This document shows positions 1 to 32,238 of a stretch of DNA of 32,238 bases, piece by piece; the first letter of the stretch is position 1; each line of letters begins with the position of its first letter. A program made the position numbers and the translations under genes. Source of the stretch: Treponema sp. (GTDB taxonomy: Bacteria > Spirochaetota > Spirochaetia > Treponematales > Breznakiellaceae); assembly GCA_009784775.1 (NCBI GenBank), contig WQXQ01000015.1, positions 1 to 32,238 of the forward strand. Reading direction: 5' to 3'. The notes below the pieces were generated by a model that was not told the origin of the DNA, did not search any database, and worked only from the letters and a program-made list of their open reading frames with translations.

Positions 1-49
1 CGGGCAGCATTTTTATAAGCTGGGTAAATCTATTCTCTTCCCTTCCCAT
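1..49 (-). CDS. N-terminal fragment of a gene leaving the left edge
   Basis: A minus-strand ATG at 49 opens a frame of 16 codons (MGREENRFTQLIKMLP) that runs off the window. I do not recognise the family from so few residues. The main support is the promoter: a -10 box TATACT ends 6 bases before the ATG, with TTAACT 17 bases further up. AAAGGA touches the ATG directly, too close to work as a normal Shine-Dalgarno site, so this looks like a leaderless start. Confidence 0.45.
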   Translation of the reverse strand, partial: MGREENRFTQLIKMLP

Positions 50-55
50 TCCTTT

Positions 56-84
56 AGTATAGCATTATTTTATGCTTAAGTTAA
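56..84 (-). promoter_or_regulatory. promoter of the left-edge gene (leaderless type)
   Basis: On the minus strand the -35 TTAACT (79-84) and -10 TATACT (56-61) are 17 bases apart. The -10 ends 6 bases before the ATG at 49, so transcription should start at or next to the start codon. Confidence 0.45.
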
Positions 85-288
85 CGCATATGCAGGGTAC
101 GGCCAAGCCGCAATGAGGAATGAGAATCGTTGTCCGTCGGCATTGCGGGTTACCAACACGCACCGATTACAAACAACGCCCCTTTTCTCATTTTTCTCCC
201 TTCTCTTCCTCATTTATTTGTTTGTGATAAAAAAACAACCTAAAAGCATCAATATTTCATAGAACCATTAAAATAAGGAAAGTAAATT
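85..288. other. intergenic stretch with an inverted repeat
   Basis: No convincing gene is seen. CCGCAATG (108-115) and CATTGCGG (141-148) form a perfect 8-bp inverted repeat around a 25-base loop. The left arm runs into an AATGAGGAATGAG stretch (112-124) of the short repeat family found at other gene ends in this window. A pyrimidine-rich run lies near 183-213. Function unknown. Confidence 0.4.
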
Positions 289-461
289 ATGTTATGTCCA
301 AAAATAACAAATGTAGAGCCTATTGATAATTATACATTAAAATTATACTATGAAAATGGTGAAAAAAATTATTTAATGTTTTACCATACATATCGGGTAA
401 ATGGTATGAAGAATTGTATAATGATTATTTTAAATCGGTACATTTAGTTTCAAATGGGCAA
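289..461 (+). pseudogene. frameshifted DUF2442-type gene
   Basis: The frame from ATG 289, after AAGGA, reads MLCPKITNVEPIDNYTLKLY and stops at 447. This is the usual beginning of small DUF2442 proteins. Near 391-397 the matching protein jumps to another frame, which reads GKWYEELYNDYFKSVHLVSN and gives the rest of the domain. One base appears to have been lost. The tail after the NGQ codons is replaced by a copy of a folC segment. DUF2442 genes often sit in toxin-antitoxin-like pairs; none is seen here. A sequencing error could mimic the frameshift, but the replaced tail also argues for decay. Confidence 0.6.
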
Positions 462-489
462 GCCTTTTTCCCGGCTTGTTTCCAATGCC
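453..489. repeat. copy of a folC 3' segment (left direct repeat)
   Basis: Positions 453-489 match 2114-2150 inside folC in the same orientation: nine identical bases (AATGGGCAA), three mismatches, then 25 identical bases (465-489 against 2126-2150). The three mismatches fall on exactly one folC codon (CAG against GGC). The two copies lie about 1.66 kb apart and flank the Bro-N and GNAT genes. The segment can also fold as CAAGCC-loop-GGCTTG. Confidence 0.75.
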
Positions 490-491
490 CC

Positions 492-547
492 TTGACTAAA
501 TTCGGCTCAATCCGCTATACTATACAAATGTTTACTTTGACAGGAGG
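492..547 (+). promoter_or_regulatory. promoter and ribosome binding site of the Bro-N gene
   Basis: TTGACT (492-497) and TATACT (516-521) are 18 bases apart, followed by AGGAGG (542-547) 6 bases before ATG 554. This is a conventional leader of roughly 25 bases, unlike the leaderless starts elsewhere in the window. The -35 box begins just after the folC-like repeat. Confidence 0.6.
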
Positions 548-553
548 ACATCT

Positions 554-1396
554 ATGGAAAAATCTCTAAGCAAGATAAAACTTTTTGAGGAACAGCAGAT
601 TCGCTATGTTTGGGATGAAGAGGCTGAAAAATGGTGGTGGTCGATTATTGATGTTATCGGTATTTTAACGGAACAACCAGATTACGACAAAGTAAGAAAT
701 TACTGGAAATGGCTAAAAACCAAGTTAAAAGAAGAAGGTAGCCAACTGGTTAGTAATACTAACCAGTTGAAATTACTCGCTCCAGACAGCAAAATGCGCC
801 TCACCGATGTTGCCGATACAGAGCAAATTCTGCGTCTTATTCAGTCCGTTCCCAGTAAAAAAGCGGAACCTTTCAAAATGTGGCTTGCCAAAGTGGGAAG
901 TGAGCGAATTGATGAAACTGTTGACCCTGAACAATCAATCGAGCGCGCTATTCAAAATTACCGCCGTTTAGGATACAGCGAAAATTGGATAAACCAGCGC
1001 ATTAAAGCAATCGAAGTCCGCAAGGCTTTGACAGATGAATGGGATAAAAGCGGCGTTAATAAAAACAATGAATACGCTGCTCTCACAGATTTAATGAGCA
1101 AGACATGGAGCGGCATGACTACCCGCGAATATAAAAAACACAAAGGCCTAAAAAAAGAAAATCTGCGCGATAATATGACCAACACTGAATTGGTGCTTAA
1201 TATGCTTGCCGAAGTTGCCGCTACGGATATATCAATTATTCGTCAGCCCAATGGATTTAACGAAAACGCCGAGGTCGCCAAAGAAGGCGCAAAAGCGGCA
1301 AAAGTTGCGCGTCAGCAGATAGAAAAAAGCACCGGAAAATCAGCAGTCAGTAAATTGAATGCAAAAAATACAGGGCAACGGCGTTTGAAAAAGTGA
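554..1396 (+). CDS. Bro-N domain protein (antirepressor-like)
   Basis: The 280-residue protein begins with a Bro-N-like domain: residues 1-110 include KIKLFEEQQIRYVWDEEAEK, then WWWSIIDVIGILT. This fold is shared by phage antirepressors and baculovirus BRO proteins and is thought to bind DNA. The C-terminal half is helical and charged, like the longer bacterial relatives of DinD type. The start is fixed by AGGAGG 6 bases upstream. It stands alone, with no phage structural or integrase gene in view, so it is a cargo or orphan gene rather than part of a visible prophage. It has its own promoter. Family placement is fairly sure; the cellular role is not known. Confidence 0.75.
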   Translation: MEKSLSKIKLFEEQQIRYVWDEEAEKWWWSIIDVIGILTEQPDYDKVRNYWKWLKTKLKEEGSQLVSNTNQLKLLAPDSKMRLTDVADTEQILRLIQSVPSKKAEPFKMWLAKVGSERIDETVDPEQSIERAIQNYRRLGYSENWINQRIKAIEVRKALTDEWDKSGVNKNNEYAALTDLMSKTWSGMTTREYKKHKGLKKENLRDNMTNTELVLNMLAEVAATDISIIRQPNGFNENAEVAKEGAKAAKVARQQIEKSTGKSAVSKLNAKNTGQRRLKK

Positions 1397-1408
1397 CAAA
1401 CTGTTTAG

Positions 1409-1471
1409 ACAAATGGGAGGGTGCCAGTTACCAGCCTTGGGCTCCAGGTATAAACTGGCGATGCCATTTGT
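1409..1471. repeat. long imperfect hairpin after the Bro-N gene
   Basis: Nested inverted repeats share one centre: ACAAATGG (1409-1416) with CCATTTGT (1464-1471), GCCAGTT (1423-1429) with AACTGGC (1453-1459), and AGCC (1433-1436) with GGCT (1440-1443). The bulges between them are unequal. No T-run follows, so it is not an ordinary terminator. It is either a structured RNA end or a recombination-type site. Confidence 0.5.
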
Positions 1472-1529
1472 ACACATACTGGATTGTAAAGAATAATATA
1501 AAAATATGTAAACGTTTGTTCTGGAATTG

Positions 1530-1558
1530 TTGAGCATATTTTGAAAATATAGTATAAT
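1530..1558 (+). promoter_or_regulatory. promoter of the GNAT gene (leaderless type)
   Basis: TTGAGC (1530-1535), a 17-base spacer and TATAAT (1553-1558) form a near-consensus promoter. The -10 ends 6 bases before ATG 1565, so the first transcribed base should be at the start codon. No Shine-Dalgarno sequence is present. Confidence 0.65.
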
Positions 1559-1564
1559 TATATA

Positions 1565-2044
1565 ATGGAAATAAAAGAATACTGTGAGAAATACTTTAAT
1601 GGTATTTATGAGGTTATCCATAAAACAATAGAGGAAATCTATCCAAAATATTACCCAAAAGAAGCCGTCGATTTCTTTCATAATCATCATTCTAAAGAAA
1701 ATATGAAAAAACAATTGCCAAATGAGTATACATTGGTAATATTTGAAAACAATATCATAATTGGGACTGGCTCATTATCTGCAAATGAAATTAAACGGTT
1801 TTTTATATTACCTGAATATCAAGGTAATGGTTATGGTAAAATATTGTTAAAGGAACTTGAAAAAAATATAAACTGGGAAAAATATGATACATTTATATTA
1901 GATTCATCATTGGGCGCTGTTAAATTTTATGAAAAAAATGGTTATGGATATAAACAATATATGACAATAGATTTACCCAATGGTAATGCATTATGTTATT
2001 TAGAAATGGAAAAATGGATAAAAAGGAACATCAAAAATAATTAA
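1565..2044 (+). CDS. GNAT family N-acetyltransferase
   Basis: The 159-residue protein has the GNAT acetyl-CoA binding signature at about residues 78-100: IKRFFILPEYQGNGYGKILL, with the (Q/R)xxGx(G/A) core QGNGYG. It is followed by the typical AVKFYEKNGY strand. Such enzymes move an acetyl group from acetyl-CoA to an amine; the substrate here cannot be told. The length is normal for a single-domain GNAT. The N-terminus matches where family members begin (MEIKEY), which supports the ATG just after the -10 box. The gene is much more AT-rich than the pyr genes next door, suggesting recent acquisition. It converges with folC across a 12-base gap. Confidence 0.85.
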   Translation: MEIKEYCEKYFNGIYEVIHKTIEEIYPKYYPKEAVDFFHNHHSKENMKKQLPNEYTLVIFENNIIIGTGSLSANEIKRFFILPEYQGNGYGKILLKELEKNINWEKYDTFILDSSLGAVKFYEKNGYGYKQYMTIDLPNGNALCYLEMEKWIKRNIKNN

Positions 2045-2056
2045 GAAATAAAATAA

Positions 2057-3418
2057 TTAATCATTCACTTTTTTTCGCACTTCTGAGACAAGGTAAAATG
2101 ATCCGGTGCAGAGAATGGGCAACTGTTTTTCCCGGCTTGTTTCCAATGCCTGTTGTATTGCTTTGTGCGTATCTTTGATAAATAGTGTTTTATCCGATAA
2201 AAATGCCTCGTATACTTTTTCCGAATCACTGGCTCTAAAACTTCCCGGCGTGGTAATGATAATGTGCGAAAAATGGGGCAGTACCATTGCTGCCATCGCG
2301 ATGGCATTTTTGTCGGCGGCGCAGCCAAACAATATTAGCCCCCCCTCGCCGTACAGCGAGCAAAATGTTTCGGCGCAGAGTGAAACACTTTCCGGCGTGT
2401 GAGCGCCGTCGATGATTACGGGGGGGGCATTGGCAATTTCAATTTTTTCAAAGCGGGCGGGAATTTGTATGTTTGCAAGCCCGCGACGAATGGCATCATC
2501 TCCAATGCCGGGGAATGCGGTTTTAAGCGCTACTACCGCAAGGCCGGCATTTTCAGCCTGAATCATTCCCGGTATCGGAATCGAAAGTTGCAGCGGCGAA
2601 TCTTTTCCATGTACTGCCAAAGAAAAATTCGTACCGCCCTGATGTATACTGACATTTGTAATTGATGCAATAGCGGGAAAGTATATCAACTGGCTGTTTT
2701 TTTCGGCGGCCCGTTTTTTGAACACCTCAAGCGCTTCAGCGTTTTGCCGCGCAAGAATCAACGGTTTGCCAGGCTTGATGATGCCTGCCTTTTCCCCTGC
2801 CACTGCTGTAATGGTATTACCCAGAAAAGCCGTATGCTCAAGCTCGATAAACGTAATAACTGAAACCAGCGGATCGACAATATTGGTGCAATCCAGCCGC
2901 CCCCCCATGCCGGTTTCCACAACCATAACATCGCAATTACCGGCGCGGGCGCAAAGGAAAAAAAACAATGTTAACAATTCAAAAAAGGTAAGCGCTTCGC
3001 CTTCCTCGCTGGCAGGATCGAACAGAGTATTGTTAAGAGATGGTATGATATGTTCCGCCACATTGCGCAATTCATCACCGGCAGTGCAGTACACCGCTTC
3101 GTCAAAAAACGCATTGCCCAAACACACCCGCTCACGAAAATCGCTGATGTGCGGCGACATATACCGCGCCACCCGGCGGCCATCCGCTTCCAGCATTGAT
3201 GCAATCATTCCCGTCAACGATCCCTTGCCTTTGGATCCCGCAATGTGAATAACCGGCGCACAGCGTTCAGGATGCCCGGCAAGCTCCGCCAAAATCTCCA
3301 TGCGATCCAGCCGGTAACTTTTGGGAATCCGGGGAATCTGCCCGCTTTCCAAATTGATAAATTGCGAAAGCCACGCAAAAATTTCCGTTGACGATGAAAA
3401 ACGCTTCTCAACTGGCAT
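2057..3418 (-). CDS. folC: folylpolyglutamate / dihydrofolate synthase
   Basis: FolC adds glutamate to folates (and in many bacteria to dihydropteroate) using ATP. The 453-residue protein carries the P-loop GSKGKGS at residues 61-67, the following MSPHISDFRERV segment and the VVETGMGGRLDCTNIVDP block that binds magnesium and folate. The C-terminal Mur-ligase domain has IIDGAHTPES. Length is normal. The start lacks a Shine-Dalgarno sequence; TATAGT ends 5 bases before the ATG, though no good -35 is visible, so a leaderless start is possible. A stretch near the 3' end (2126-2150) is duplicated at 465-489. With metF and glyA nearby it belongs to one-carbon metabolism. Confidence 0.93.
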   Translation of the reverse strand: MPVEKRFSSSTEIFAWLSQFINLESGQIPRIPKSYRLDRMEILAELAGHPERCAPVIHIAGSKGKGSLTGMIASMLEADGRRVARYMSPHISDFRERVCLGNAFFDEAVYCTAGDELRNVAEHIIPSLNNTLFDPASEEGEALTFFELLTLFFFLCARAGNCDVMVVETGMGGRLDCTNIVDPLVSVITFIELEHTAFLGNTITAVAGEKAGIIKPGKPLILARQNAEALEVFKKRAAEKNSQLIYFPAIASITNVSIHQGGTNFSLAVHGKDSPLQLSIPIPGMIQAENAGLAVVALKTAFPGIGDDAIRRGLANIQIPARFEKIEIANAPPVIIDGAHTPESVSLCAETFCSLYGEGGLILFGCAADKNAIAMAAMVLPHFSHIIITTPGSFRASDSEKVYEAFLSDKTLFIKDTHKAIQQALETSREKQLPILCTGSFYLVSEVRKKVND

Positions 3419-3450
3419 GATTCACTATAGCGTGTATTCGGGTTAATGTA

Positions 3451-3469
3451 TATAATGACTCAGGAGTTA
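3451..3469 (+). promoter_or_regulatory. -10 box and ribosome binding site of the VOC gene
   Basis: TATAAT at 3451-3456 is followed by CAGGAG and then ATG 3472. This implies a short leader of about 9-10 bases that still contains a Shine-Dalgarno site. No clear -35 is seen. The region is shared with the divergent folC start. Confidence 0.4.
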
Positions 3470-3471
3470 AC

Positions 3472-3939: not shown

Positions 3940-4797
3940 ACTATCGTGGATGCCCGCCGTTTTCAGTATCTCGGTGATTTTTTTCCATTTGTTTAGTGTG
4001 TACAAATGCAAACCATTGATGCCCGCCGCAATGAAACGATGAATTTGGGTTACCGTATATTCCGTGCCGGCTTTCGTAAAACTTTCGGGATCATGCTGGT
4101 ATTTACCAAAAATGGAAGCAAGTTCCGCCGGAATGGAACAGCCGTTATAGATGGTCATGCGGATGGTCGGCTCGGCGACCAGCACCGGCATGATTCCCGC
4201 CACCACCGGAATGGTGATACCCGCTTTGCGAATCTTTTCCAGAAAACGTTCAAAGGCCGTTACATCATGGCACAGTTGGGTCATAAGGAATTGCGCGCCG
4301 CGATCCTGTTTTAAGCGCAAATGGGCAATGTCCATTTCCATTGAAGGAGCGCTGATGTGCTTTTCCGGATACGCCGCCGCTGCAAGACACAGACCGGGAA
4401 ACTCAGCGCCTAACAGGCTGATAAGATCACTGGCATAGGAAAAATCGCCTCTGGTTCCTTCCCACCCGGCAGGAAAATCACCGCGCAATGCAAGCACATT
4501 TTCAAGCCCCATCGCCGCATATTCTTTGGCCAAAACCCTGATGTCATCGCGGCTGTTTCCAATGCAGGTAAAATGAGGCATCGCCAAATGTCCGCTTTTT
4601 TGCACCGCAGTGCACACCTCGATATTTCGTCCCCGGCTTGAACCTCCCGCGCCGTAGGTACAGCTGATAAAATCCGGTTTAAAATCGTACAAGCGGGAAA
4701 GAGTCTCTACAATTCCGTCCATGGGAATATCGGCCTTGGGAGGAAAAACCTCAAAAGAAAGGGTTCGTTTTTTCTGCAACAATTCCGCAATTTTCAT
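3931..4797 (-). CDS. metF: methylenetetrahydrofolate reductase
   Basis: MetF reduces 5,10-methylene-THF to 5-methyl-THF with FAD, feeding methionine synthesis. The 288 residues match a bacterial MetF barrel. LSFEVFPPK has Glu16 at the place of the catalytic Glu28 of E. coli MetF, followed by FISCTYGAGGSSR near residue 45, ALRGDFP near 103 and the C-terminal LHLYTLNK. The gene starts 21 bases after pyrD and could be read through from it. It also has its own promoter (4804-4832) ending 6 bases before the ATG and no Shine-Dalgarno site. In acetogenic treponemes MetF also serves the Wood-Ljungdahl pathway; nothing here decides that. Confidence 0.93.
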   Translation of the reverse strand: MKIAELLQKKRTLSFEVFPPKADIPMDGIVETLSRLYDFKPDFISCTYGAGGSSRGRNIEVCTAVQKSGHLAMPHFTCIGNSRDDIRVLAKEYAAMGLENVLALRGDFPAGWEGTRGDFSYASDLISLLGAEFPGLCLAAAAYPEKHISAPSMEMDIAHLRLKQDRGAQFLMTQLCHDVTAFERFLEKIRKAGITIPVVAGIMPVLVAEPTIRMTIYNGCSIPAELASIFGKYQHDPESFTKAGTEYTVTQIHRFIAAGINGLHLYTLNKWKKITEILKTAGIHDSSF

Positions 4798-4803
4798 TGT
4801 AAT

Positions 4804-4832
4804 AGTATAACATACAATTTATGTATTGCGAA
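4804..4832 (-). promoter_or_regulatory. promoter of metF (leaderless type)
   Basis: On the minus strand TTCGCA (4827-4832), 17 bases, TATACT (4804-4809), then 6 bases to the ATG at 4797. It lies across the last codons of pyrD, so metF may be expressed apart from the pyr operon. Confidence 0.5.
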
Positions 4833-5733: not shown

Positions 5734-6625
5734 CGAATATAACCTCATTTGCATTGAAGATAGGCCCATCGGCACAGCAGCGCCGGTTGCCATTGACGGT
5801 TTTTATCGTGCAGCCAAGGCAGGCACCCACACCGCAGGCCATTCGCTGTTCCGTACTGATAAAACAGGGAACCCCTGCCGCGATACATTTTGCCGCAACC
5901 GCTTGCAGCATTAGTCCCGGCCCGCACGCGCACACTGCCGCATACTTTTCCGGTTCCAAAAAATCGGGGATGCGGCCCTTGTGTCCCGCTTTGCCATCTT
6001 CCGTTGCGAGAGTGACACTCTCCGCTTCAAGATAAGCCACCCCCAGCAGCGCGTGTTTTTCTGTATCGTCTTTAAAGCCAGTTCGAAAACCGGCGTACAC
6101 ATTAAAAATATGTCCCGGCGATTCGCATAACAAGGCATTCAGCGGGGCAATCCCCAGACCGCCGCTTATCAAAGCAATTGGTTTTCCGCCTTCCTGCACC
6201 GCAGGTAAAAAATCGCTCCAGGCATTTCCCAACGGCCCAATCAATTCCGCTTCTTCACCAATGCGCATGGAAGCCAATTCTTCCGTTCCCTTCCCTCGCC
6301 GCTCAATCAAAAAAGTGATGGTATCAGATTCCAAATACTTCCCCGTCAAATACCTTTGATACGGCGTGCTTTTATTCCGTGCTTTTCTGCGGATATAATC
6401 TTTATCTTCTACCGCCGGTTCCCACTTCGCCACACTGATCGGCCTGCCCAGAAAAATGGCACTCCGCTTGGGTTTAATCATAAAAAACTGCCCCGCCTTT
6501 GGCGCAGTGAGTTTTACGTTTCCGGACTGCCACACAAAATCCATCCGAAAAACTTCTTTGTTTATAAAATCATTCCGTATCAACTCACCGCTTACACCGC
6601 AAGGCTTACATTCCTCACACCTCAT
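5726..6625 (-). CDS. pyrK: dihydroorotate dehydrogenase electron-transfer subunit
   Basis: PyrK carries electrons from PyrD's FMN through a [2Fe-2S] cluster and FAD to NAD. The ferredoxin-reductase-like body includes GRPISVAKW (FAD), LIGPLGNAW and ALISGGLGIAPL (NAD). The C-terminal cluster motif MACGVGACLGCTIK, with the later RRCCADGP, supplies the iron ligands. The 299 residues are somewhat longer than many PyrKs. The first dozen residues (MRCEECKPCGVS) come from a GAGGAATG repeat that also forms the Shine-Dalgarno site. A TTG start near 6583 is an alternative. It sits between pyrF and pyrD in the operon. Confidence 0.93.
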   Translation of the reverse strand: MRCEECKPCGVSGELIRNDFINKEVFRMDFVWQSGNVKLTAPKAGQFFMIKPKRSAIFLGRPISVAKWEPAVEDKDYIRRKARNKSTPYQRYLTGKYLESDTITFLIERRGKGTEELASMRIGEEAELIGPLGNAWSDFLPAVQEGGKPIALISGGLGIAPLNALLCESPGHIFNVYAGFRTGFKDDTEKHALLGVAYLEAESVTLATEDGKAGHKGRIPDFLEPEKYAAVCACGPGLMLQAVAAKCIAAGVPCFISTEQRMACGVGACLGCTIKTVNGNRRCCADGPIFNANEVIFDG

Positions 6626-6640
6626 TCCTCATTCCTCATT
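6609..6640. repeat. short tandem repeat CATTCCT(C) at the pyrF-pyrK junction
   Basis: Seven-base units (ATTCCTC, on the minus strand GAGGAAT) are repeated here with one CTCACAC variant. The repeat contains the pyrF stop codon, the pyrK start codon and a usable GAGGA 7 bases before that start. A 16-base part (6613-6628) recurs inverted at 22943-22958 upstream of pheS. Confidence 0.7.
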
Positions 6641-7544: not shown

Positions 7545-7545
7545 T

Positions 7546-11667: not shown

Positions 11668-12510
11668 CTAAAAAAACAATTCCTCCAGGAAAATTGCCAG
11701 GCCTTCTTCGGCATTGGAGCCAAAAATAAAGTCGGCTGCTGCACGGACTTTTTCTTTGGCGCTGGATGGGGCTGCCGAAAAGCCGGCAACGGTAAACATG
11801 GGCAAATCGTTTTCTTCATCGCCAAAAGCGATTACTTCTTCCGGTTTGAGGCCCCGGTAATCCATAACGATTTTGAGGCCCTCACCCTTGGAGACTCCGG
11901 CGTTCATTATTTCCAAAAAAGAAGGATAGGTGTTGACGATATACACACGGTTGCCAAAGCGGTCGGTCATCGCGCGGCGAATTTCGGGATGCAGCGCAGG
12001 GTTGGCAATAAACATCGCCTTGATGACGCCTTGCAGTCCCGGCGCGGCAATGGCTGCTTTTAGATCGGTCACAACCGGAAGTATGCTCGTATGTTTGTGA
12101 TACATCTCCGATTCCGGCCTTTGTTTTTCAACAAGCAGCGCCCTTTTGCCGTCGGCCTGTGGAGGTAAAAATACCTGAAAATGAATATTCATGCGGTGAG
12201 CCAGATCAATGCCAAAATCAACGATATCAAGACTCAGCAAATTGGAACTGAGCAATTTGACTTCCGGCACATCCGCCACTTCGGCGCCGTTGAAAAATAC
12301 CATTGGCCCATCCGCGCCAAGAGCGTTGTAAAAACGAGCGGCCGATTCAATGGCCCTGCCGGTGCAGAGTATCAATTGTATCCCGTTGGCTTTCAGCCTT
12401 TTCAGGCATTGGATGGTACGTTCGCCCAGGCTGGAATCGGGCAATAAAGCAGTGCCGTCAAGGTCAATAGCCAGCGCTTTTATTGTGGTAATATCGATTT
12501 TTTTCTGCAT
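11668..12510 (-). CDS. Cof-type HAD hydrolase
   Basis: The 280 residues form a HAD phosphatase of the Cof/IIB class. Motif I is AIDLDGT with Asp16 and Asp18, motif II is LILCTGR near residue 60, and the C-terminal motif IV is VIAFGDEENDLPMF. The cap between them is the large C2 type. Such enzymes remove phosphate from sugar phosphates, pyridoxal phosphate or flavin precursors; the substrate cannot be read. No Shine-Dalgarno site precedes the ATG, and TACACT ends 5 bases before it. The upstream region is shared with glyA, transcribed the other way. Confidence 0.88.
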   Translation of the reverse strand: MQKKIDITTIKALAIDLDGTALLPDSSLGERTIQCLKRLKANGIQLILCTGRAIESAARFYNALGADGPMVFFNGAEVADVPEVKLLSSNLLSLDIVDFGIDLAHRMNIHFQVFLPPQADGKRALLVEKQRPESEMYHKHTSILPVVTDLKAAIAAPGLQGVIKAMFIANPALHPEIRRAMTDRFGNRVYIVNTYPSFLEIMNAGVSKGEGLKIVMDYRGLKPEEVIAFGDEENDLPMFTVAGFSAAPSSAKEKVRAAADFIFGSNAEEGLAIFLEELFF

Positions 12511-12515
12511 GGGTC

Positions 12516-12565
12516 AGTGTATCCTGAAATCAACGCTTGAAACAACAGCCCGTCCGGTGTATTAT
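12516..12565. promoter_or_regulatory. interleaved divergent promoters of the HAD gene and glyA
   Basis: For glyA (+): TTGAAA (12537-12542), 17 bases, TATTAT (12560-12565), then 5 bases to ATG 12571. For the HAD gene (-): TTGTTT (complement of 12540-12545), 18 bases, TACACT (complement of 12516-12521), then 5 bases to the ATG at 12510. The -35 boxes overlap, so the two promoters should compete. The glyA side is convincing, the HAD side weak. Confidence 0.5.
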
Positions 12566-12570
12566 AGGGC

Positions 12571-14082
12571 ATGAAAACAAATCCCGTAACCGCCTATCTT
12601 ACATCTACTCCGCCGGAAAAAGTAGACACCAACCTTTTGGCCTATTTGTGCAATCTGACCGAGATCGCCAAAACCACACCGGAAATAGCCGCTTCCATTG
12701 TCAAGGAACTGGAAAACCAGCGAAAGCGGATAAAGCTTATTGCCAGCGAAAATTACTGCTCCATGGCGGTACAGCTTGCGATGGGAAACCTTTTAACCGA
12801 CAAGTATGCCGAGGGTTATCCCCAGCATCGTTTTTACGCGGGCAACGAAAATGTGGATGCGATTGAATCGCTTGCGGCGGCGGAGGCTTGTAAGCTTTTT
12901 GGCGCGGAGTATGCCAATGTGCAGCCTCACTGCGGTGCGGATGCCAATGTGCTTGCATTCTGGGCAATTCTTGCAACACGGATCGAAAAACCCGCGCTGG
13001 AAAAATGGAAGGAAACCAACCTCTACAAACTGACCGATGACCAATGGAATGAGCTCAAGGCCGATATGGGAAACCAGCGCTTGTTGGGGCTGGACTATTA
13101 TTCCGGCGGCCACCTTACCCACGGGTATCGGTATAATATGTCCGGCAGGATGTTTGATATTTATGGCTATTCGGTTTCCAAAGAGACCGGTGTTTTGGAT
13201 TATGACCAAATTGAAAAACAGGCCATCGAAGTGCGTCCGTTGATTCTGCTGGCGGGTTATTCGGCCTATCCCCGTAAAATCAATTTTAAGCGAATGCGGG
13301 AAATTGCCGACAAGGTCGGCGCGGTTTTTATGGTTGATATGGCCCATTTTGCCGGCCTTATCGCAGGCAAAATTTTTACCGGTGAATACGACCCCGTGCC
13401 CTGGGCGCACGTCGTCACCACTACGACCCACAAAACCTTACGCGGCCCCCGCGCCGGAATGGTACTCGCAACCACCGAATTTGCCGAAGCGCTGGATCAT
13501 GGCTGCCCCCTCACTATGGGTGGCCCCTTGCCTCACGTCATTGCTGCCAAGGCGGTTGCCTTCCGTGAAGCTGCCGCGCCGGAATTTAAGGATTATGCGC
13601 AACGTATTGTTGATAACTGCAAGGCATTAGCCGACTCCTGCATGAAAAATGGCCTTGATGTACTTACCGGCGGAACGGATAATCACCTGTTATTGATTAA
13701 TGTGCATAAGCTGGGTCTTACCGGCAGACAGGCCGAAAGCGCCCTGCACGAGTGTCGCATAACACTCAACCGGAACAGCTTGCCCTTTGATCCCAATGGC
13801 CCCTGGTACACTGCCGGTCTGCGGGTGGGAACAGCCGCTGTCACAACCCTTGGAATGGGCAAAGCCGAAATGGAGGAGATAGGATCGATTATAGCGCTGG
13901 TACTCAAAGGAACCAGCCCGGCACCTACGGAAAAAGATCCATCGGTAAAAAGCAAGGCCAAATACCTGATTGAACCGGCGGTAAAAGCAGAAGCGCTCGA
14001 TCGCGCACAAAAAGTGCAGGATCGTTTCCCCGTATATCCTGAACTGGATTTACCCCTGCTCAAAAAGGCTTTTGTCGATTAA
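12571..14082 (+). CDS. glyA: serine hydroxymethyltransferase (long form)
   Basis: GlyA interconverts serine plus THF with glycine plus methylene-THF, using PLP. The 503 residues exceed the usual 410-430. The extra length is an N-terminal extension of about 40 residues and an insertion near residues 130-205. Long forms of this kind are known in treponemes and chlamydiae. Key blocks are IASENYCSMAV, YAEGYPQHRFYAGNENVD, MVDMAHFAGLIAG and TTTTHKTLRGPRAG with the PLP lysine at Lys288. The ATG lies 5 bases after the -10 box with no Shine-Dalgarno, so a leaderless start is likely. It heads the run glyA-rmuC-DUF2156-rlmB. Confidence 0.94.
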   Translation: MKTNPVTAYLTSTPPEKVDTNLLAYLCNLTEIAKTTPEIAASIVKELENQRKRIKLIASENYCSMAVQLAMGNLLTDKYAEGYPQHRFYAGNENVDAIESLAAAEACKLFGAEYANVQPHCGADANVLAFWAILATRIEKPALEKWKETNLYKLTDDQWNELKADMGNQRLLGLDYYSGGHLTHGYRYNMSGRMFDIYGYSVSKETGVLDYDQIEKQAIEVRPLILLAGYSAYPRKINFKRMREIADKVGAVFMVDMAHFAGLIAGKIFTGEYDPVPWAHVVTTTTHKTLRGPRAGMVLATTEFAEALDHGCPLTMGGPLPHVIAAKAVAFREAAAPEFKDYAQRIVDNCKALADSCMKNGLDVLTGGTDNHLLLINVHKLGLTGRQAESALHECRITLNRNSLPFDPNGPWYTAGLRVGTAAVTTLGMGKAEMEEIGSIIALVLKGTSPAPTEKDPSVKSKAKYLIEPAVKAEALDRAQKVQDRFPVYPELDLPLLKKAFVD

Positions 14083-21260: not shown

Positions 21261-22901
21261 CTATTCCTTTGCGCGACGCAGGCGCACATTTTCAATATCG
21301 TAGCTGAACAATTCCCGCAGATCGTTAAGGCCCAAAGCCATCAACGCCATGCGATCAATCCCAATACCCCATGCGGCAACCGGCACATGCACTCCCATGC
21401 TTTCGGTTACTTCGGGCCGGAAAATGCCGGAGCCGCCCAGTTCAAACCAACCCAACACCGGATGTTTGATATGCACCTCCACCGAAGGCTCGGTAAAAGG
21501 GAAATAACCGGGAACGTATTTGACTTCTTTGGCGCCGGCAACTTCGCAGGCAAACATTTCCAGCATACCCAATAAGGTACGCAGGTTGACATTTTCACCT
21601 AACACAATACCTTCGGTCTGATAAAAGTCCGGCAGATGCGTCGCATCCACCCGGTCATACCGGAAACAGCGGGCAATGCCAAAATACTTGCCGGGGATTT
21701 TTGCCGTGGGCAACATTCGCGCGGAAAGCGCCGTACCCTGGCTGCGCAGTATCAGCCGCTTGGTAAAATCTTTGTCAAACGCATAACTCCAGCCGCGGCT
21801 GCCGGTTTTGCCGCCGTGGGTGTGAGCCGCCGCCACATTGGAAAGCCACGGCTCTTCGATGGTTTTTGCGCTGGCAACACCGTTTGGATCGGCAGAATCG
21901 GCAATGCGGTAGCTGTCGTGAATATCACGGGCGGAATGGAATTGCGGCATAAACAAGGCATCGGAATTCCAGAATTCGGTTTCGACTAACGGTCCGTCAA
22001 ACTCTTCAAAGCCCAGCGAAGCAAGTTTGTCTTTGACGTGCTCAAGAAATTGTGCGTAGGGATTACTGCGCCCCGGAGTCAGCCGCACCGGCGGCGTTTT
22101 AACGTTATACGATCGAAATACCTTGCCTTTCCAGCTGCCCGTTTCCAGCATCTGCGGCGTAAGGGTGCCAATTTCATCACCCGTGATCCCCGCGGCATTC
22201 AGCGCCGCTGCTGCAGCCTCGGCAGGAACCGAACCGTCTTCTGCAACAGCAAAGCCGTACACCACCGTTTCCCGCTCGAACTGGCGGAAGGCAGCATCGG
22301 CAGCGCCGCGTTTTTTGGCAATGCCGGCCATGATCTTTTTCTCTGCGTCACTCAGCGAAACCTCGGCAAGCAAGCCGCCTTCGGTCACCACTTTTATAAG
22401 CAAGCCCTTCATCAACCTGAAGTGGGCAAGTATTGGATTTTTATCAGGATCATCAAGATGATCCAACGGCAGGGTTATAACGACCTTTTTATGGTCATCC
22501 ATCGACAATACGCCCAGTTTGGACAAACTGCCAAAGGCGCTGCCAATATCTTTATTTTCCATTTTGAGCGCTTCGGCAATATCGGGCAAGCGCGGCCTGT
22601 CCTCCGCCCGGTTGATCCTTTCCCGTATCAACGCAAGGATTCGCTCTTCGGGGCTGCCCTTTTCTTTCCATTCCTGCCCCAGACCCGTTATCTCGTAAAA
22701 GACCGCCGTCTCGCGCCGAACCTCGTTAATCAGCCCCTTCCCCGCCAGCCACGACAGCGCCTGGTTGCCATTGCCCGGCTTAAAGTCCAGTTCCTTTTCA
22801 ACCTTTTCGATGGTCAGTTCATCACCCTTTTTGTAGGAAAGGATGATTCGTATTTCCAGCGGATGCAGGTTTTTCACCGTGTTTTGTATATCAATTGCCA
22901 T
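21261..22901 (-). CDS. pheS: phenylalanyl-tRNA synthetase alpha subunit (archaeal type)
   Basis: The 546-residue protein has N-terminal winged-helix domains (LHPLEIRIILSYKKGDEL, then ALSWLAGKGLI) as in archaeal PheS, and is far longer than the 330-residue bacterial form. The class II catalytic core holds motif 2 (CFRYDRVDATHLPDFYQTEG) and motif 3 (GGSGIFRPEV, then GIGIDRMALMALG). The promoter TTGAAC-17-TACAAT ends 6 bases before the ATG with no Shine-Dalgarno, so translation should start on a leaderless message. pheT follows in the same operon. Confidence 0.94.
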   Translation of the reverse strand: MAIDIQNTVKNLHPLEIRIILSYKKGDELTIEKVEKELDFKPGNGNQALSWLAGKGLINEVRRETAVFYEITGLGQEWKEKGSPEERILALIRERINRAEDRPRLPDIAEALKMENKDIGSAFGSLSKLGVLSMDDHKKVVITLPLDHLDDPDKNPILAHFRLMKGLLIKVVTEGGLLAEVSLSDAEKKIMAGIAKKRGAADAAFRQFERETVVYGFAVAEDGSVPAEAAAAALNAAGITGDEIGTLTPQMLETGSWKGKVFRSYNVKTPPVRLTPGRSNPYAQFLEHVKDKLASLGFEEFDGPLVETEFWNSDALFMPQFHSARDIHDSYRIADSADPNGVASAKTIEEPWLSNVAAAHTHGGKTGSRGWSYAFDKDFTKRLILRSQGTALSARMLPTAKIPGKYFGIARCFRYDRVDATHLPDFYQTEGIVLGENVNLRTLLGMLEMFACEVAGAKEVKYVPGYFPFTEPSVEVHIKHPVLGWFELGGSGIFRPEVTESMGVHVPVAAWGIGIDRMALMALGLNDLRELFSYDIENVRLRRAKE

Positions 22902-22907
22902 AGGGAT

Positions 22908-22936
22908 ATTGTAACAAAATTACGAAAAGGGTTCAA
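22908..22936 (-). promoter_or_regulatory. pheST promoter (leaderless type)
   Basis: TTGAAC (22931-22936), 17 bases, TACAAT (22908-22913), then 6 bases to the ATG at 22901, all on the minus strand. The bases between -10 and ATG (ATCCCT) contain no ribosome binding site. Confidence 0.65.
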
Positions 22937-23045: not shown

Positions 23046-23339
23046 TCATCCAATTTTAACGACCTCTCCTATTTTATTTAACATTGTATAAAAATCATAA
23101 TTTGCATCAAAATCAACAAGATCTATATTATTATCAAAATTAAAGTAGATTTTTGAATATATTTTGAAAAAATTTCCTTTTGGATATCCTTTTATGCCAA
23201 TATCTATATCTGAATTTTCATTTATTTTTCCAGTAACTAATGATCCAAACAAATAAATTTCTTCACAACCCTCATTTTTGAGCAATTTAGTTACATTTTC
23301 TATATCTTGACGATATTTTACAGGTACATTTATATCCAT
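23046..23339 (-). CDS. MNT-domain nucleotidyltransferase (MntA-like)
   Basis: The 97-residue protein has the minimal nucleotidyltransferase signature: YLFGSLVTGKINENSDIDIG with Gly32-Ser33 and the metal-binding Asp44 and Asp46, and a later Asp in NNIDLVDF. MNT proteins of this size usually act as antitoxins that AMPylate a HEPN toxin, or as orphan nucleotidyltransferases. No full HEPN gene is next to it. The gene is strongly AT-rich, unlike pheS. TTGACT-16-TATAAT ends 8 bases before the ATG and there is no Shine-Dalgarno, so it is probably leaderless. Confidence 0.82.
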   Translation of the reverse strand: MDINVPVKYRQDIENVTKLLKNEGCEEIYLFGSLVTGKINENSDIDIGIKGYPKGNFFKIYSKIYFNFDNNIDLVDFDANYDFYTMLNKIGEVVKIG

Positions 23340-23347
23340 AATATTAT

Positions 23348-23375
23348 ATTATACAAAAATATATATTTAAGTCAA
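23348..23375 (-). promoter_or_regulatory. promoter of the MNT gene (leaderless type)
   Basis: TTGACT (23370-23375), 16 bases, TATAAT (23348-23353). A second, overlapping TATAAT at 23343-23348 has no -35 at a proper distance. Confidence 0.55.
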
Positions 23376-23601: not shown

Positions 23602-24314
23602 TGTACCGCAAACGGAATAATTTCGGTGATTTGTATGCGGAAGCGGGCAGAGGCGACCCATTGGCCGGATTGAATAAAAAAGCGGGGGAAGGAGGCAAGG
23701 CTGATAATGCCGGTTGCTTCTTTGGGGCGGTTGCGTTCACTGCTGCGCAGTATTTGCCGGACGGCGGCTCTGGCGGCGTCTTGCAGGGCGGCGTTTCGTA
23801 TGTCCAGCCAGCCGGAGTCCGGTGAAGGGCCGTGCAACGGACAATAGCCCAGAGCCTGAGCATTACGATTCATTCCCATTCGCCATATCTGCATACGCCT
23901 TTGTTGATCGCTGCTCAATTCATAATCAGCCCAAATTCGCAGTTGCGTACCGCGGTTTTCAACTTCAGTCACTTTAAGCCGGGGATCTCCCCAGCGTATC
24001 TCGCCCATTGGTTCAAACACACCAAAATCTTCGGCAATGCCCCTGGCCCGCTCTCCAATATCATAATGAAAAGACCAGCCGTAGATCATGCCGGAAAAAT
24101 ACAGAGCTGCTTCCTGCAAAGCCCGCCTGCCTGCAGTATCTCTGCTCAGCGGGTACTCAGCATCAACTCTGTCACCGTAAATCGGCTCAACATCTACCCA
24201 CACTTCGCCCCGGAGCACTAACGGGGTATTTCCCGGATCATGCCCCTGCGCCAGCACCGTCCAAGACTGGCATATGATGAAAAAGAGAAAAATGGGGAAA
24301 ATCCTGCGGGTCAT
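23598..24314 (-). CDS. secreted protein of unknown family
   Basis: From ATG 24314 (MTRRIFPIFLFFIICQ, ending VLAQ) the protein has 238 residues with a clear signal peptide and no lipobox. Regions such as WVDVEPIYGDRVDAEYPLS, GRRALQEAALYFSGMIYGWS and WLDIRNAALQDAARAAVRQI have the alpha-beta look of spirochaete envelope proteins, but I do not recognise the family. GATAAT ends 6 bases before this ATG, which favours it. An alternative ATG at 24380 overlaps the uraA stop (TGATG) and would add 22 residues ahead of the signal. It lies downstream of uraA on the same strand. Confidence 0.65.
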   Translation of the reverse strand: MTRRIFPIFLFFIICQSWTVLAQGHDPGNTPLVLRGEVWVDVEPIYGDRVDAEYPLSRDTAGRRALQEAALYFSGMIYGWSFHYDIGERARGIAEDFGVFEPMGEIRWGDPRLKVTEVENRGTQLRIWADYELSSDQQRRMQIWRMGMNRNAQALGYCPLHGPSPDSGWLDIRNAALQDAARAAVRQILRSSERNRPKEATGIISLASFPRFFIQSGQWVASARFRIQITEIIPFAVH

Positions 24315-27821: not shown

Positions 27822-27843
27822 TATTTATCCGTGGGAAGAAAGC

Positions 27844-27884: not shown

Positions 27885-27897
27885 AGCTTAGTTGATA

Positions 27898-29233: not shown

Positions 29234-29264
29234 TGTTTACTCCTTTAGAAAACAACTTATTATT

Positions 29265-29283
29265 TTATGGAAAACTTCCATAA
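29265..29283. promoter_or_regulatory. inverted repeat upstream of the beta-barrel gene
   Basis: TTATGGAA (29265-29272) and TTCCATAA (29276-29283) are perfect 8-base arms with a 3-base centre. On the minus strand a TAAAAT -10-like box overlaps the downstream edge, so this may be an operator. The -35 (TTCAGA) is weak. Confidence 0.4.
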
Positions 29284-29321
29284 TCTGAACCGGCTCCACA
29301 ACATGGGCCAGAATCATACAA

Positions 29322-30266
29322 TTAAAAGGACTCCGAAGCCATGGTGATAATTTCCGCGGTTTGTACATTCAGCGCTTTGGCCCGTAACCGCCTGGTGGAA
29401 CCGCTTCCGCTGACGCTTCCGGTAATAACGACATTGGCGCCCAGCATTTTTCCGATAGATACGGCCGAGTTATCATCAACATCCCCGGAGTACTGGAAAT
29501 TGGCTTCCGCCCGAACTGCGTCCAGACTCTTGCGGTCTACTACTCTGAATTTTCTGGTATCAACGAATAAGAAGACTATCTCTTCGATGATGAAATCAGC
29601 CATATCCTGATCGCTGCTCGCAATACTTAAAACCGCTACGGTGGTATTTTCGGGAAGGTTATGTATTAACGTATGGGCCGCTCTGATTACCGCATCCTCA
29701 AGCGGATTGCCTGAACTTCTTCTTGCAGGGGCTGCGGCGGCTCGGGGAGCGGGAGCAGCTCTGGCAGCAGGCGCGGGCGCGGGCGCAGCAGGGAGCGCCG
29801 CAATTGCGGCTGCGGCTGGCGGCGGTGGAGCCGCAGCAGGCGTAACGGCTCCGCCGCCGCCCACGGCCAGGGTATTCTGGATGTTCAAACTAACCAGCGC
29901 GCCATACCGCATGGTCATACCAACAATGGTACAGGTTGCGTTGGAACTGACCGTTATACTTCTTTTGGCGCCAATATTCCATGTGCCGCCCCGCGCGGTG
30001 GTATCAGCCGCTTCTACCACATTTTGCCCGTTGTGTACAATTATTTTTTCCCGTGTCTTTGGGCGCAGATGAGCAACGGTAACGCCATTGACCCATACCA
30101 CAATGTCTTTGTCTGCATTTTCCGCGTTAATGATTATTTCCGACTGGCCTGCGCCGGCTGAGGCGTTGGGATCGTTGGGTCCAGCCAGGCGCGTCTGGGC
30201 ATTAAGGCCTGCTATAAGACACAGGCCAAGAAATACCATAATGCTATTCTTCTGATATCGTTTCAT
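29322..30266 (-). CDS. secreted FlgO/CsgG-like protein
   Basis: The 314 residues start with a signal peptide (to about residue 24), then an N-terminal beta-rich part (about 43-125; IVVWVNGVTVAHLRPKTREK) similar in style to PEGA or carbohydrate-binding modules. An Ala/Pro-rich linker (about 138-185) follows. The C-terminal domain is FlgO/CsgG-like: NTTVAVLSIASSDQDMADFI, then FRVVDRKSLDAVRAEANFQ, SIGKMLGANVVITGSVSG and a final LNVQTAEIITM. FlgO and CsgG are outer-membrane assembly proteins. No lipobox is present. The promoter ends 7 bases before the ATG and its -35 lies inside an inverted repeat next to the XRE gene. Confidence 0.8.
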   Translation of the reverse strand: MKRYQKNSIMVFLGLCLIAGLNAQTRLAGPNDPNASAGAGQSEIIINAENADKDIVVWVNGVTVAHLRPKTREKIIVHNGQNVVEAADTTARGGTWNIGAKRSITVSSNATCTIVGMTMRYGALVSLNIQNTLAVGGGGAVTPAAAPPPPAAAAIAALPAAPAPAPAARAAPAPRAAAAPARRSSGNPLEDAVIRAAHTLIHNLPENTTVAVLSIASSDQDMADFIIEEIVFLFVDTRKFRVVDRKSLDAVRAEANFQYSGDVDDNSAVSIGKMLGANVVITGSVSGSGSTRRLRAKALNVQTAEIITMASESF

Positions 30267-30273
30267 AGTACCC

Positions 30274-30303
30274 AGTATATTAAAATACTTGACTATTTGT
30301 CAA
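30274..30303 (-). promoter_or_regulatory. promoter of the FlgO-like gene (leaderless type)
   Basis: TTGACA (30298-30303), 18 bases, TATACT (30274-30279), then 7 bases to the ATG at 30266. The -35 is inside the 30283-30309 inverted repeat, so a bound repressor would block it. Confidence 0.65.
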
Positions 30304-30309
30304 GTATTT
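30283..30309. promoter_or_regulatory. candidate operator for the XRE regulator
   Basis: Perfect 11-base arms AAATACTTGAC (30283-30293) and GTCAAGTATTT (30299-30309) flank a 5-base centre. A third copy of the half-site, AAATACTTGA, lies at 30703-30712 on the SH3 gene promoter. Spacing and symmetry fit a dimeric helix-turn-helix protein. Confidence 0.6.
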
Positions 30310-30360
30310 ATGAAATAAATCAACATTCTATACTATAAGTTATTAGTATCATGACTTTCA

Positions 30361-30387
30361 AGTTAGTAAGGTGATAAAAACCTAACT
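30361..30387. promoter_or_regulatory. second inverted repeat in front of the XRE gene
   Basis: AGTTAG (30361-30366) and CTAACT (30382-30387) are 15 bases apart and end just before the GGGTGG ribosome binding site of the XRE gene. It could be an autoregulatory site or an RNA stem; the sequence differs from the 30283-30309 operator. Confidence 0.35.
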
Positions 30388-30400
30388 ATTAGGGTGGAAA

Positions 30401-30712
30401 ATGACCGACCTAAGAAAGGTGCTGGCCTTCAATATGAAGCTGCACCGCAAAAAGCTGGGACTGTCGCAGGCAAGACTGGCAGAACTGGTAGATGTATCCG
30501 ATAACCACATTGCGCTGATAGAAACCGGCAGGCGATTCCCTTCAATTACCATGCTTGAACTGTTGGCTACTGCCCTGGAAATAGACATTATTGAACTGTT
30601 TTCAATAGAAGCTATTGCATTATCCGCCAAAAAAGACGTTAAAAACGCCATTTTGGCGGATATTGACCATATTCTGACTATCAGATTGCTCGAGAATATT
30701 AAAAATACTTGA
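30401..30712 (+). CDS. XRE-family transcriptional regulator
   Basis: The 103-residue protein is almost all helix-turn-helix: FNMKLHRKKLGLSQARLAEL, then VDVSDNHIALIETGRRFPSI and TMLELLATALEI (about residues 10-62). A short tail (LADIDHILTIRLLE) may dimerise. It lacks a sensor domain. It starts after GGGTGG and lies between the divergent FlgO-like gene and the SH3-M48 pair, with matching half-sites in both promoters. It is therefore a good candidate for a local regulator of both arms. Confidence 0.88.
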   Translation: MTDLRKVLAFNMKLHRKKLGLSQARLAELVDVSDNHIALIETGRRFPSITMLELLATALEIDIIELFSIEAIALSAKKDVKNAILADIDHILTIRLLENIKNT

Positions 30713-30736
30713 AATTTAGAAAAAAAGATGTATAGT
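30703..30736 (+). promoter_or_regulatory. promoter of the SH3-M48 pair with XRE half-site
   Basis: TTGAAA (30709-30714), 16 bases, TATAGT (30731-30736), then 6 bases to ATG 30743. The half-site AAATACTTGA (30703-30712) overlaps the -35 box and the last codons of the XRE gene. Confidence 0.55.
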
Positions 30737-30742
30737 GAATGT

Positions 30743-31195
30743 ATGCGAAAACTTATATGTATAATGGTGATGGCGCTCTGTATTAGTCCCCTGCTTTTTT
30801 CCCAAGCCGGGGGGAATATGCGCTATGTGGCGGTTCAAACCGCCGTTCTGAAAGATTCTACCGGGTTTTTTGCCAAAGATCTAAGGTCTCTTTCACTGGG
30901 GGATGCGGTAACATTTATCCGCGAAAGCGGCAAATGGACCGAAGTCCGGGTAGGTAATGTTACTGGCTGGGTAGCCTCATCAAGTTTGAGCGCCCGGCAG
31001 GTAGTTGCATCTGTTTCCTCTGTTTCAGTCAACGAGGTTGCACTGGCGGGAAAGGGATTTTCTGTGGATACGGAAATCGAATACCGGAAAAGCGGCTTGG
31101 ACTACTCTATGGTAGATTCAATGGAACGAACGGTTGTGCCTGGTGATGAACTTTTACGTTTTATCACTGAAGGCCGCTTGTCCAGGGGGGAATAA
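30743..31195 (+). CDS. secreted SH3-domain protein
   Basis: The protein of about 150 residues starts at ATG 30743, 6 bases after a -10 box and without a Shine-Dalgarno site. The upstream in-frame ATG at 30728 would lie before or inside the -10. A signal peptide (MRKLICIMVMALCISPLLFS) is followed by a bacterial SH3 domain: YVAVQTAVLKDSTGFFAKDL, then LSLGDAVTFIRESGKWTEVR and GNVTGWVASSSL. Such domains bind peptidoglycan or partner proteins in the periplasm. The stop codon touches the ATG of the M48 gene, so the two are translated together. Confidence 0.82.
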   Translation: MRKLICIMVMALCISPLLFSQAGGNMRYVAVQTAVLKDSTGFFAKDLRSLSLGDAVTFIRESGKWTEVRVGNVTGWVASSSLSARQVVASVSSVSVNEVALAGKGFSVDTEIEYRKSGLDYSMVDSMERTVVPGDELLRFITEGRLSRGE

Positions 31196-32092
31196 ATGCG
31201 AATATTTTTGGCATTAGTATGCATCGTGGGGTGTCTCCTTGTCCCGGCAGCGTATGCGGTAGGGCAGTCTCAGGGCAGCAATACCGGCTCACAGGCAACC
31301 GGCGCCCAAGGCGCTTTTGGCAGCGCTCTGTCCAATCTGGATAACGCGGTTAATACGGCGGATGCGGAATTTACTCCGCAGGATGAATATTATCTGGGGC
31401 GCGCGGTGGCAGCAAATATTCTGGCAGCGTACCGGCCCTACACCGCAAACCCGGAACTGACCCGCTATGTGAACCGTATTTGTCAGACCATTGTGATTAA
31501 CTCTCCGCAACCGGCCTTATTCAAAGGCTATTATGTGATGGTTCTTGACAGCCCTGAATTTAACGCGTTTGCTACTCCCGGCGGGCACATTTTCCTTACC
31601 AGAAAACTGGTAGAAACAGCCACTTCCGAGGATATGCTGGCGGCGGTTATTGCCCATGAGCTTGCTCATATTATGTTGAAACACAGCATTGCCATTATCA
31701 ATGAGATGCGGTTTATGGATGATATGTCGGCAACGGCAGGCCGGGCGGCGAATATAGCCGGTCAGCAAACCAACGCTGCCAAGCAGGCTGCGTATTTCCG
31801 CAATTCGGTAACGGCAAGTATTGATACCATGATCAAAAACGGTTATTCCCAGGAGCAGGAGTTCCAGGCAGACCGGATGGCGGCAGGCCTTCTGGCGGTT
31901 TCGGGGTATAACCCGGCAGCGCTGGTGGAAATGTTACGGGTACTGCAGCAAATGCAGTCTGCCCAAAGGGGCGGATTCAATACAACCCACCCTTCACCGG
32001 CTCAGCGTATCTCAAATGTGCAGGGAACGGCTAACCAATACCGGGTTCAGGATACCAGCGCTTCCCGCGCGGCACGGTTCCGGAACAAGTAA
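31196..32092 (+). CDS. periplasmic M48 family metalloprotease (BepA-like)
   Basis: The 298-residue protein has a signal peptide (RIFLALVCIVGCLLVPAAYA). The zinc protease core is HELAHIMLKHS with His154 and His158, and the third ligand is Glu222 in EFQADRMA. It has the M48 segments NAFATPGGHIFLTRKLVE and HPSPAQRI. No TPR domain follows, so it is shorter than E. coli BepA and nearer to LoiP/YggG-type proteins, which check outer-membrane protein assembly. GGGGGGAA precedes its ATG within the end of the SH3 gene. A terminator follows at 32122. Confidence 0.9.
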   Translation: MRIFLALVCIVGCLLVPAAYAVGQSQGSNTGSQATGAQGAFGSALSNLDNAVNTADAEFTPQDEYYLGRAVAANILAAYRPYTANPELTRYVNRICQTIVINSPQPALFKGYYVMVLDSPEFNAFATPGGHIFLTRKLVETATSEDMLAAVIAHELAHIMLKHSIAIINEMRFMDDMSATAGRAANIAGQQTNAAKQAAYFRNSVTASIDTMIKNGYSQEQEFQADRMAAGLLAVSGYNPAALVEMLRVLQQMQSAQRGGFNTTHPSPAQRISNVQGTANQYRVQDTSASRAARFRNK

Positions 32093-32121
32093 AAGCGGTA
32101 ACGCGTATGCAAAAACAAAGG

Positions 32122-32158
32122 GGCTGTCCGAGAAGTACATCTTGGGCAGCCTTTTTTT
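32122..32158 (+). terminator. Rho-independent terminator after the M48 gene
   Basis: GGCTGTCC (32122-32129) pairs with GGGCAGCC (32144-32151), with a small inner AGA/TCT extension, and seven T follow (32152-32158). It lies about 30 bases past the M48 stop. Confidence 0.85.
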
Positions 32159-32167
32159 ATTAAAAGA

Positions 32168-32196
32168 TTCCCAAAGATGAAAAGCCATGTTAGAAT
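32168..32196 (+). promoter_or_regulatory. promoter of the right-edge gene (leaderless type)
   Basis: TTCCCA (32168-32173), 17 bases, TAGAAT (32191-32196), then 6 bases to ATG 32203. No Shine-Dalgarno site is present. Confidence 0.45.
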
Positions 32197-32202
32197 CTTT
32201 AT

Positions 32203-32238
32203 ATGAGCAAAGGAAAAAGTGATAAAATCACCTACAAA
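32203..32238 (+). CDS. N-terminal fragment of a gene leaving the right edge
   Basis: ATG 32203 opens 12 codons (MSKGKSDKITYK) running off the window. The family cannot be told. Support comes from the promoter just upstream and the terminator before it. Confidence 0.4.
   Translation, partial: MSKGKSDKITYK

Follow-up and report, generated by a model that had tools for sequence, protein, structure and literature searches.

Several genes on a 32,238-nucleotide contig of Treponema sp. (WQXQ01000015.1, here C15, of GenBank assembly GCA_009784775.1; the whole stretch is called the window) are preceded by a sigma70-like promoter whose -10 box ends a few nucleotides before the ATG, and show no Shine-Dalgarno (SD) site. 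This raises the question of whether such genes are transcribed without a leader and of how common they are, since a first-pass annotation of the window had proposed leaderless transcription as the default for first genes. We put at roughly 0.85 the probability that in a substantial minority of transcription units a housekeeping-sigma promoter is fused to the coding sequence, in which case the message would start on, or 1-2 nucleotides (nt) ahead of, the start codon and be translated by SD-less initiation. Direct support comes from the geometry of these starts, its excess over chance, a matching -35 element, the preservation of the arrangement at glyA, and the finding that pheS orthologues include both leaderless-like and SD-led forms; where the mRNA begins and how it is translated we infer.

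The assembly (2.40 Mb in 153 contigs, 92.7% complete) was studied in two samples, one of 403 kb including the window (299 genes called) and one of 320 kb from other contigs (255 genes called), and a first gene was defined as one lying at least 50 nt behind a same-strand gene or at least 30 nt from an opposite-strand gene. When starts were picked without regard to the -10 box, 87 SD-less first genes had 22 strong -10 matches at a gap of 5-8 nt, where the rate at gaps 30-79 would give 5.7. The relatives G019, G063 and G302, tested likewise, gave 9 versus 1.5, 8 versus 0.6 and 6 versus 1.4, and E. coli gave 6 versus 3.7. Class shares were taken from a latent-start mixture model with fixed generic matrices, in which the -10 class has its box 4-9 nt before the start; 200 kb of E. 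coli MG1655 run through the same model was the negative control, and G138, which yielded a single 11-kb contig, was not modelled. This model replaced the choice of starts by coding score alone, which was discarded as it truncated signal peptides, and freely trained -10 matrices were discarded because for E. coli and some operon-internal sets they wandered off to meaningless motifs, so that all quoted shares come from the fixed generic -10 matrix. The -10 class took 28.8% of the 159 first genes of the first sample (bootstrap 22-37%, 60 resamples; 3.7-9.8% in five shifted windows) and 33.0% of the 124 of the second (25-43%; 5.6-14.5% in shifted windows), or about 21-22% in both once the shifted-window mean is subtracted. 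Among the relatives the class reached 20.1% in G019 (4.0-12.5% in shifted windows), 26.6% in G063 (2.8-7.2%) and 18.3% in G302 (3.5-12.4%). The earlier view that the spacing is hard to explain by chance is thus borne out by the SD-less test, with which the shifted windows and the second sample concur.

The class of each gene was also tallied for both samples together, with 11 of 283 genes left out and 272 labelled. In the 53 genes assigned to the -10 class with confidence (P of at least 0.8), gaps of 5, 6, 7, 8 and 9 nt occurred 6, 21, 7, 15 and 4 times and the start codon was ATG in 47, while an in-frame start with a strong SD shortly downstream was found in 3 of the 53, similar to the SD class (7 of 121). 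The gap had been described as constant; its clustering stands, but what we find is a distribution with a mode of 6 and a range of 5-9. Transcription by sigma70 polymerase typically begins some 7 nt downstream of the -10 box, so the predicted mRNA start falls at or near the start codon, and leaderless initiation relies on a 5' AUG and fMet-tRNA. In the mechanism we propose, a sigma70-type holoenzyme would bind the -35, a 16-18 nt spacer and the -10, with 5-8 nt (mode 6) from there to the start codon; the first transcribed nucleotide would lie at the start codon or 1-2 nt ahead of it, and initiation would need no SD, the AUG at the 5' end presumably being recognized together with fMet-tRNA. A related explanation, which we find doubtful although it survives better than the others, is that the promoters are real and the messages carry short leaders of 3-10 nt rather than being strictly leaderless. 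The 19 of 53 confident genes with a gap of 8-9 would indeed have leaders of about 1-3 nt or more, but the modal gap of 6 predicts +1 on the A of the ATG under the usual sigma70 start choice, and functionally a short-leadered message would differ little from a leaderless one.

As to how common these starts are, at a posterior of at least 0.5 SD starts outnumbered the -10 class in both samples, by 98 to 43 among 159 first genes and by 56 to 38 among 124, and the SD-led share of first genes was 57% and 44%, respectively. In favor of leaderless transcription as the default, 8 of about 23 first genes of the window are convincing fusions by hand count (metF, a ninth, is internal by position) and the raw model weight of the -10 class is 29-33%. 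Nonetheless, the net share is about 22% and not more than half of first genes, and the window may be richer in fusions than the genome. The proposed default is therefore not supported, and we regard it as very unlikely; leaderless-like starts are probably a minority class of first genes, roughly one in five.

Although the -35 element played no part in the selection of genes, it was found at the distance expected of a promoter. For the 43 genes of the first sample, the mean best TTGACA score was 1.46 at spacers of 16-18 nt as compared to -1.32 to 0.14 in 14 other windows, and a score of at least 3 was reached by 12 of the 43, versus 0-5 elsewhere. The second sample was weaker (0.49 versus -1.15 to 0.11 in 10 other windows; 7 of 38 genes versus 0-3). 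In whole-genome counts, which span all sequence and not gene starts alone, the TTGANN/TATNNT pattern occurred 78 times with a gap of 5-7 and 31 times with a gap of 11-13, a 2.5-fold difference (reversed controls 15 and 10). By pattern, TTGNCA was counted 80 times versus 18 reversed, and TTANCA 26 times versus 26 reversed. A second -35 flavor, TTCNCA, was also seen before promoter-fused starts (23 versus 10 reversed). The pattern with a gap of 5-7 exceeded that with a gap of 11-13 in every one of the 59 genomes tallied, those of the order among 296 searched from the phylum; by the ratio of the two this genome ranks eighth of the 59, and is therefore not peculiar.

The gene glyA (promoter and start codon at 12537..12573, plus strand: TTGAAA, 17 nt, TATTAT, gap 5, ATG 12571) is one at which the arrangement was followed through relatives. 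Thirty loci were tried and 18 scored, 11 having been dropped for an uncovered N-terminus and one for a short upstream region; 14 were leaderless-like, three SD-led and one other. Within the genus, at loci with 75-86% protein identity to the window, TANNNT at a gap of 5-6 with no SD was present in 14 of 15 readable loci including the window, the remaining one being the 'other', and in another family of the same order (G019, G031 and G056) all three readable loci had an SD. When the 14 loci were aligned on the -10, conservation over the -35 was T 1.00, T 0.71, G 0.50, A 0.79, A 0.93 and A 0.36, with four of the six letters well over the spacer mean of 0.46; only this -35 conservation counts, because the T, A and T of the -10 were fixed by the choice of motif. 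The predicted leaderless-like arrangement at glyA is thus held across the genus. The corresponding loci of metF, for which a match was found in 9 of 29 genomes, were uninformative: of 11 tried, four were dropped and seven scored, with three leaderless-like including the window (two of the three weakly), three other and one SD-led.

In pheS (22899..22936, minus strand: TTGAAC, 17 nt, TACAAT, gap 6, ATG 22901) the two kinds of start coexist among orthologues. The best 80 of 503 PheS relatives, at 69-84% identity and all titled Treponema, Spirochaetaceae, Spirochaetia, Spirochaetes or Gracilinema, were retrieved; many of these bins we take to be from termite guts. Two were too short, and 78 were compared, making 79 rows with the window; 30 of these were leaderless-like, another 30 were SD-led and 19 fitted neither label. 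Among the 49 rows that lack an SD, TANNNT stood at a gap of 6 in 21 and in at most 7 at any other gap; nine of the 30 leaderless-like rows depend on gaps of 5, 7 or 8, and some starts are uncertain. The TTCNCA flavor of -35 was also noted at pheS loci, where several of the relatives have CTTCTCAAA or CTTCCCAAA at the -35 and TTGCTATTCT or a near-match at the -10. A quick tree called for at least 16 changes between leaderless-like and SD-led, with 29 of 76 inner branches open, and the starred branches alone for at least 10 changes of the leaderless-like label and at least 12 of the SD label, each set against all other rows. The leaderless-like label took 20 changes as compared to a shuffled mean of 24.3 (as low in 16 of 500), and the SD label 17 as compared to 24.1 (as low in 2 of 500), so that the labels are only loosely clustered on the tree and some of what looks like switching may come from noisy labels. 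In L084 and its sisters L080 and L082 the -35 and -10 letters match and are followed by 6 nt, or by a 22 nt longer stretch with GGAG, up to the start. A matching promoter was clear in three of seven aligned groups (L084/L080/L082, L066/L073/L090 and L056/L064/L067), and the other four had no clean matching promoter. In some sister groups the switch would then have come about as an SD-bearing leader of 20-odd nt was acquired or lost downstream of the matching promoter. Set beside the constancy of glyA, the apparent repeated switching at pheS leads us to suggest, tentatively, that in Treponema-like spirochaetes the promoter could be the conserved unit and the leader the movable part, with leaderlessness a gene-specific selectable setting.

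These comparisons bear on the proposal that the AT-rich hexamer is a translation signal, either an S1-type site or a Bacteroidota-like non-SD site, and not a promoter. Other bacteria are described as using AT-rich non-SD upstream signals in the portions of the literature available to us (PMC9581028, PMC5397173). Here, the -35 peak is confined to the 16-18 nt spacing, and some leadered pheS relatives keep the -35 and -10 in place with an SD-bearing leader before the ATG, as the L084 group illustrates. Moreover, bS21 is present in the genome and SD sites are widely used; the SD matrix has the consensus AGGAGG with gaps mostly of 4-7, which suggests an intact anti-SD, with no 16S match in this assembly. 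We hold a translation signal to be highly improbable. Chance, in the form of AT-rich upstream promoters together with selection by the reader, is hardly credible as a general account, for although first-gene upstream sequence is 62% A+T, which makes TANNNT common, it is countered by the shifted windows, the reversed patterns, the second sample, the -35 spacing and the glyA orthologues, and may hold for single genes such as that at 24314 or the ATG at 528.

Several observations weigh against promoter-fused starts as a substantial class. The gene calls and starts rest on a simple purpose-made caller, an early version of which overlooked the GNAT gene described below, and 93 of the 272 labelled genes were 'unsure'. 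In E. coli the -10 class took 8.7% versus 2.8-12.2% in shifted windows, with no clear excess, and the floor of the method is therefore about that size. Column-permuted -10 matrices still took 4-20% of the first sample and 4-13% of the second; a few positions out of register, some of these matrices can fit the real motif. Operon-internal genes gave 12% versus 2-9% in shifted windows, which reflects real internal promoters or noise. The lack of a -10 at a gap of 5-8 in SD-positive genes is largely by construction, because both motifs fill the same place. Beyond the order some genomes do not show the excess, as G057 has 160 matches at a gap of 5-7 and 214 at a gap of 11-13. Finally, the window itself holds a counter-example (492..569, plus strand), where TTGACT, 18 nt, TATACT and a gap of 6 lead to an ATG at 528 that is no gene start and opens a 13-codon open reading frame (ORF) in out-of-frame overlap with the SD-led Bro-N gene at 554. 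This ORF is a candidate leaderless upstream ORF, or chance, and the geometry alone therefore proves no single gene.

With that restriction, the nine cases that had been listed as well supported were reproduced exactly in their hexamers, spacers (16-18) and gaps (5-8). The scan of the window covered 34 starts, of which the rows for pyrK, the 10419 lipoprotein and DUF2156 were unused, their positions not being on a start codon. Within the gaps of 3-11 nt that were scanned, the best SD-like score was 1.9 for glyA and at most 0 for the other eight, compared with 4.8-6.7 for the clear SD genes of the window (Bro-N, VOC, SUMF1, uraA, two LPP20-like and OMP). Besides glyA and pheS, the nine include the left-edge gene (47..84, minus strand: TTAACT, 17 nt, TATACT, gap 6, ATG 49), which continues beyond the contig and in which AAAGGA adjoins the ATG at a gap of 0, beyond the range of the SD scan. 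The GNAT gene (Pfam Acetyltransf_10; 1530..1567, plus strand) has TTGAGC, 17 nt, TATAAT and a gap of 6 to ATG 1565 (P 0.99). On the minus strand lie a small nucleotidyltransferase gene, MNT (Pfam Polbeta; 23337..23375: TTGACT, 16 nt, TATAAT, gap 8, ATG 23339), and a 'FlgO-like' gene (Pfam CsgG, LpoB; 30264..30303: TTGACA, 18 nt, TATACT, gap 7, ATG 30266). The SH3 gene (Pfam SH3_3 slightly below cut-off; 30709..30745, plus strand: TTGAAA, 16 nt, TATAGT, gap 6, ATG 30743) starts 30 nt behind its neighbor, under the 50-nt limit for a first gene, and its in-frame ATG at 30728 falls within the promoter.

For metF (4795..4832, minus strand: TTCGCA, 17 nt, TATACT, gap 6, ATG 4797), which had been counted as a first gene, the promoter geometry was confirmed but not the first position, as its ATG lies 21 nt past the stop of pyrD on the same strand. 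The promoter (4804-4832) sits in and just past the end of pyrD, with the -35 within it. Operon-internal by position, metF may have its own leaderless transcript. Three further genes had been put forward as weaker cases. The -10 was found for folC (3416..3429, minus strand: TATAGT, gap 5, ATG 3418) and for the HAD gene (12508..12521, minus strand: TACACT, gap 5, ATG 12510), but neither had a convincing -35 (best scores 0.6 and 1.1), and the gene at 24314 (GATAAT, -35 score -2.8) was not sustained.

The right-edge gene (32168..32205, plus strand: TTCCCA, 17 nt, TAGAAT, gap 6, ATG 32203) has an identical copy on contig C111. Its terminator-like hairpin, promoter and gene start (32111-32212) are identical at C111:1-102, and a piece of 38-46 nt of this repeat is found at four further contig places. 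The repeat is perhaps a mobile element, at a site where contigs break. A dispersed repeat starting with TTGACACTTTCACTTGAAAC or a near-match, with promoter-like boxes of its own, was seen in L151, L152, C13, C43, C129, C131 and C136, with a divergent copy in L153/C92, and accounts for 6 of the 80 matches to the TTGNCA pattern. In L151 and L152 it is followed by AATGAG/CTCATT inverted stretches resembling a miniature inverted-repeat transposable element, and at the pyrF/pyrK junction (6621-6640) the sequence CTCATTCCTCATTCCTCATT is similar to these inverted stretches.

The first-pass annotation knew of no description of leaderless genes in spirochaetes, which is wrong at the level of the phylum. 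In Leptospira interrogans, differential RNA sequencing placed the primary transcription start site of about 440 genes within 10 nt of the start codon, and leaderless transcripts were described as common (PMC5243855, Zhukova et al. 2017, as far as the text available goes). In the available part of a genomic survey, leaderless genes were found in 6 of 18 spirochaete genomes, at a mean of 3.9% and a range of 1.8-6.9% (PMC3160421, Zheng et al. 2011). That range refers to all genes by another method and our share of about 22% to first genes, so the figures are not directly comparable. For Treponema, we found no report of leaderless transcription in the open-licence literature, judged mostly by title; of the texts that use the word, one, in the part available, cites GeneMarkS-2 and one concerns leaderless peptides.

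The Treponema starts resemble those of L. interrogans, also a spirochaete with many starts 0-10 nt from the transcription start site, but there the sites were measured and, sigma54 sites aside, no known promoter motif was found, whereas here they are sequence-predicted and show clear TTGACA/TATAAT-like elements (PMC5243855). They also resemble the TA-led leaderless genes of the survey, in which TANNNT lies some 12 bp ahead of the start and which are listed for Spirochaetes too (PMC3160421). As in Mycobacterium and Deinococcus, leaderless messages would stand beside SD-led genes (cited in the portions available of PMC5243855 and PMC5397173); those genera belong to other phyla and are RNA-backed, while the Treponema case is known from sequence alone. 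With their comparative evidence, the present findings would add the Treponema side of the phylum to Leptospira as a place where leaderless starts occur. Start callers that rely on the SD alone may misplace roughly one in five first-gene starts there, and at pheS, sister genes that have matching promoters but differ in whether a leader is present offer material for measuring the cost and benefit of a leader.

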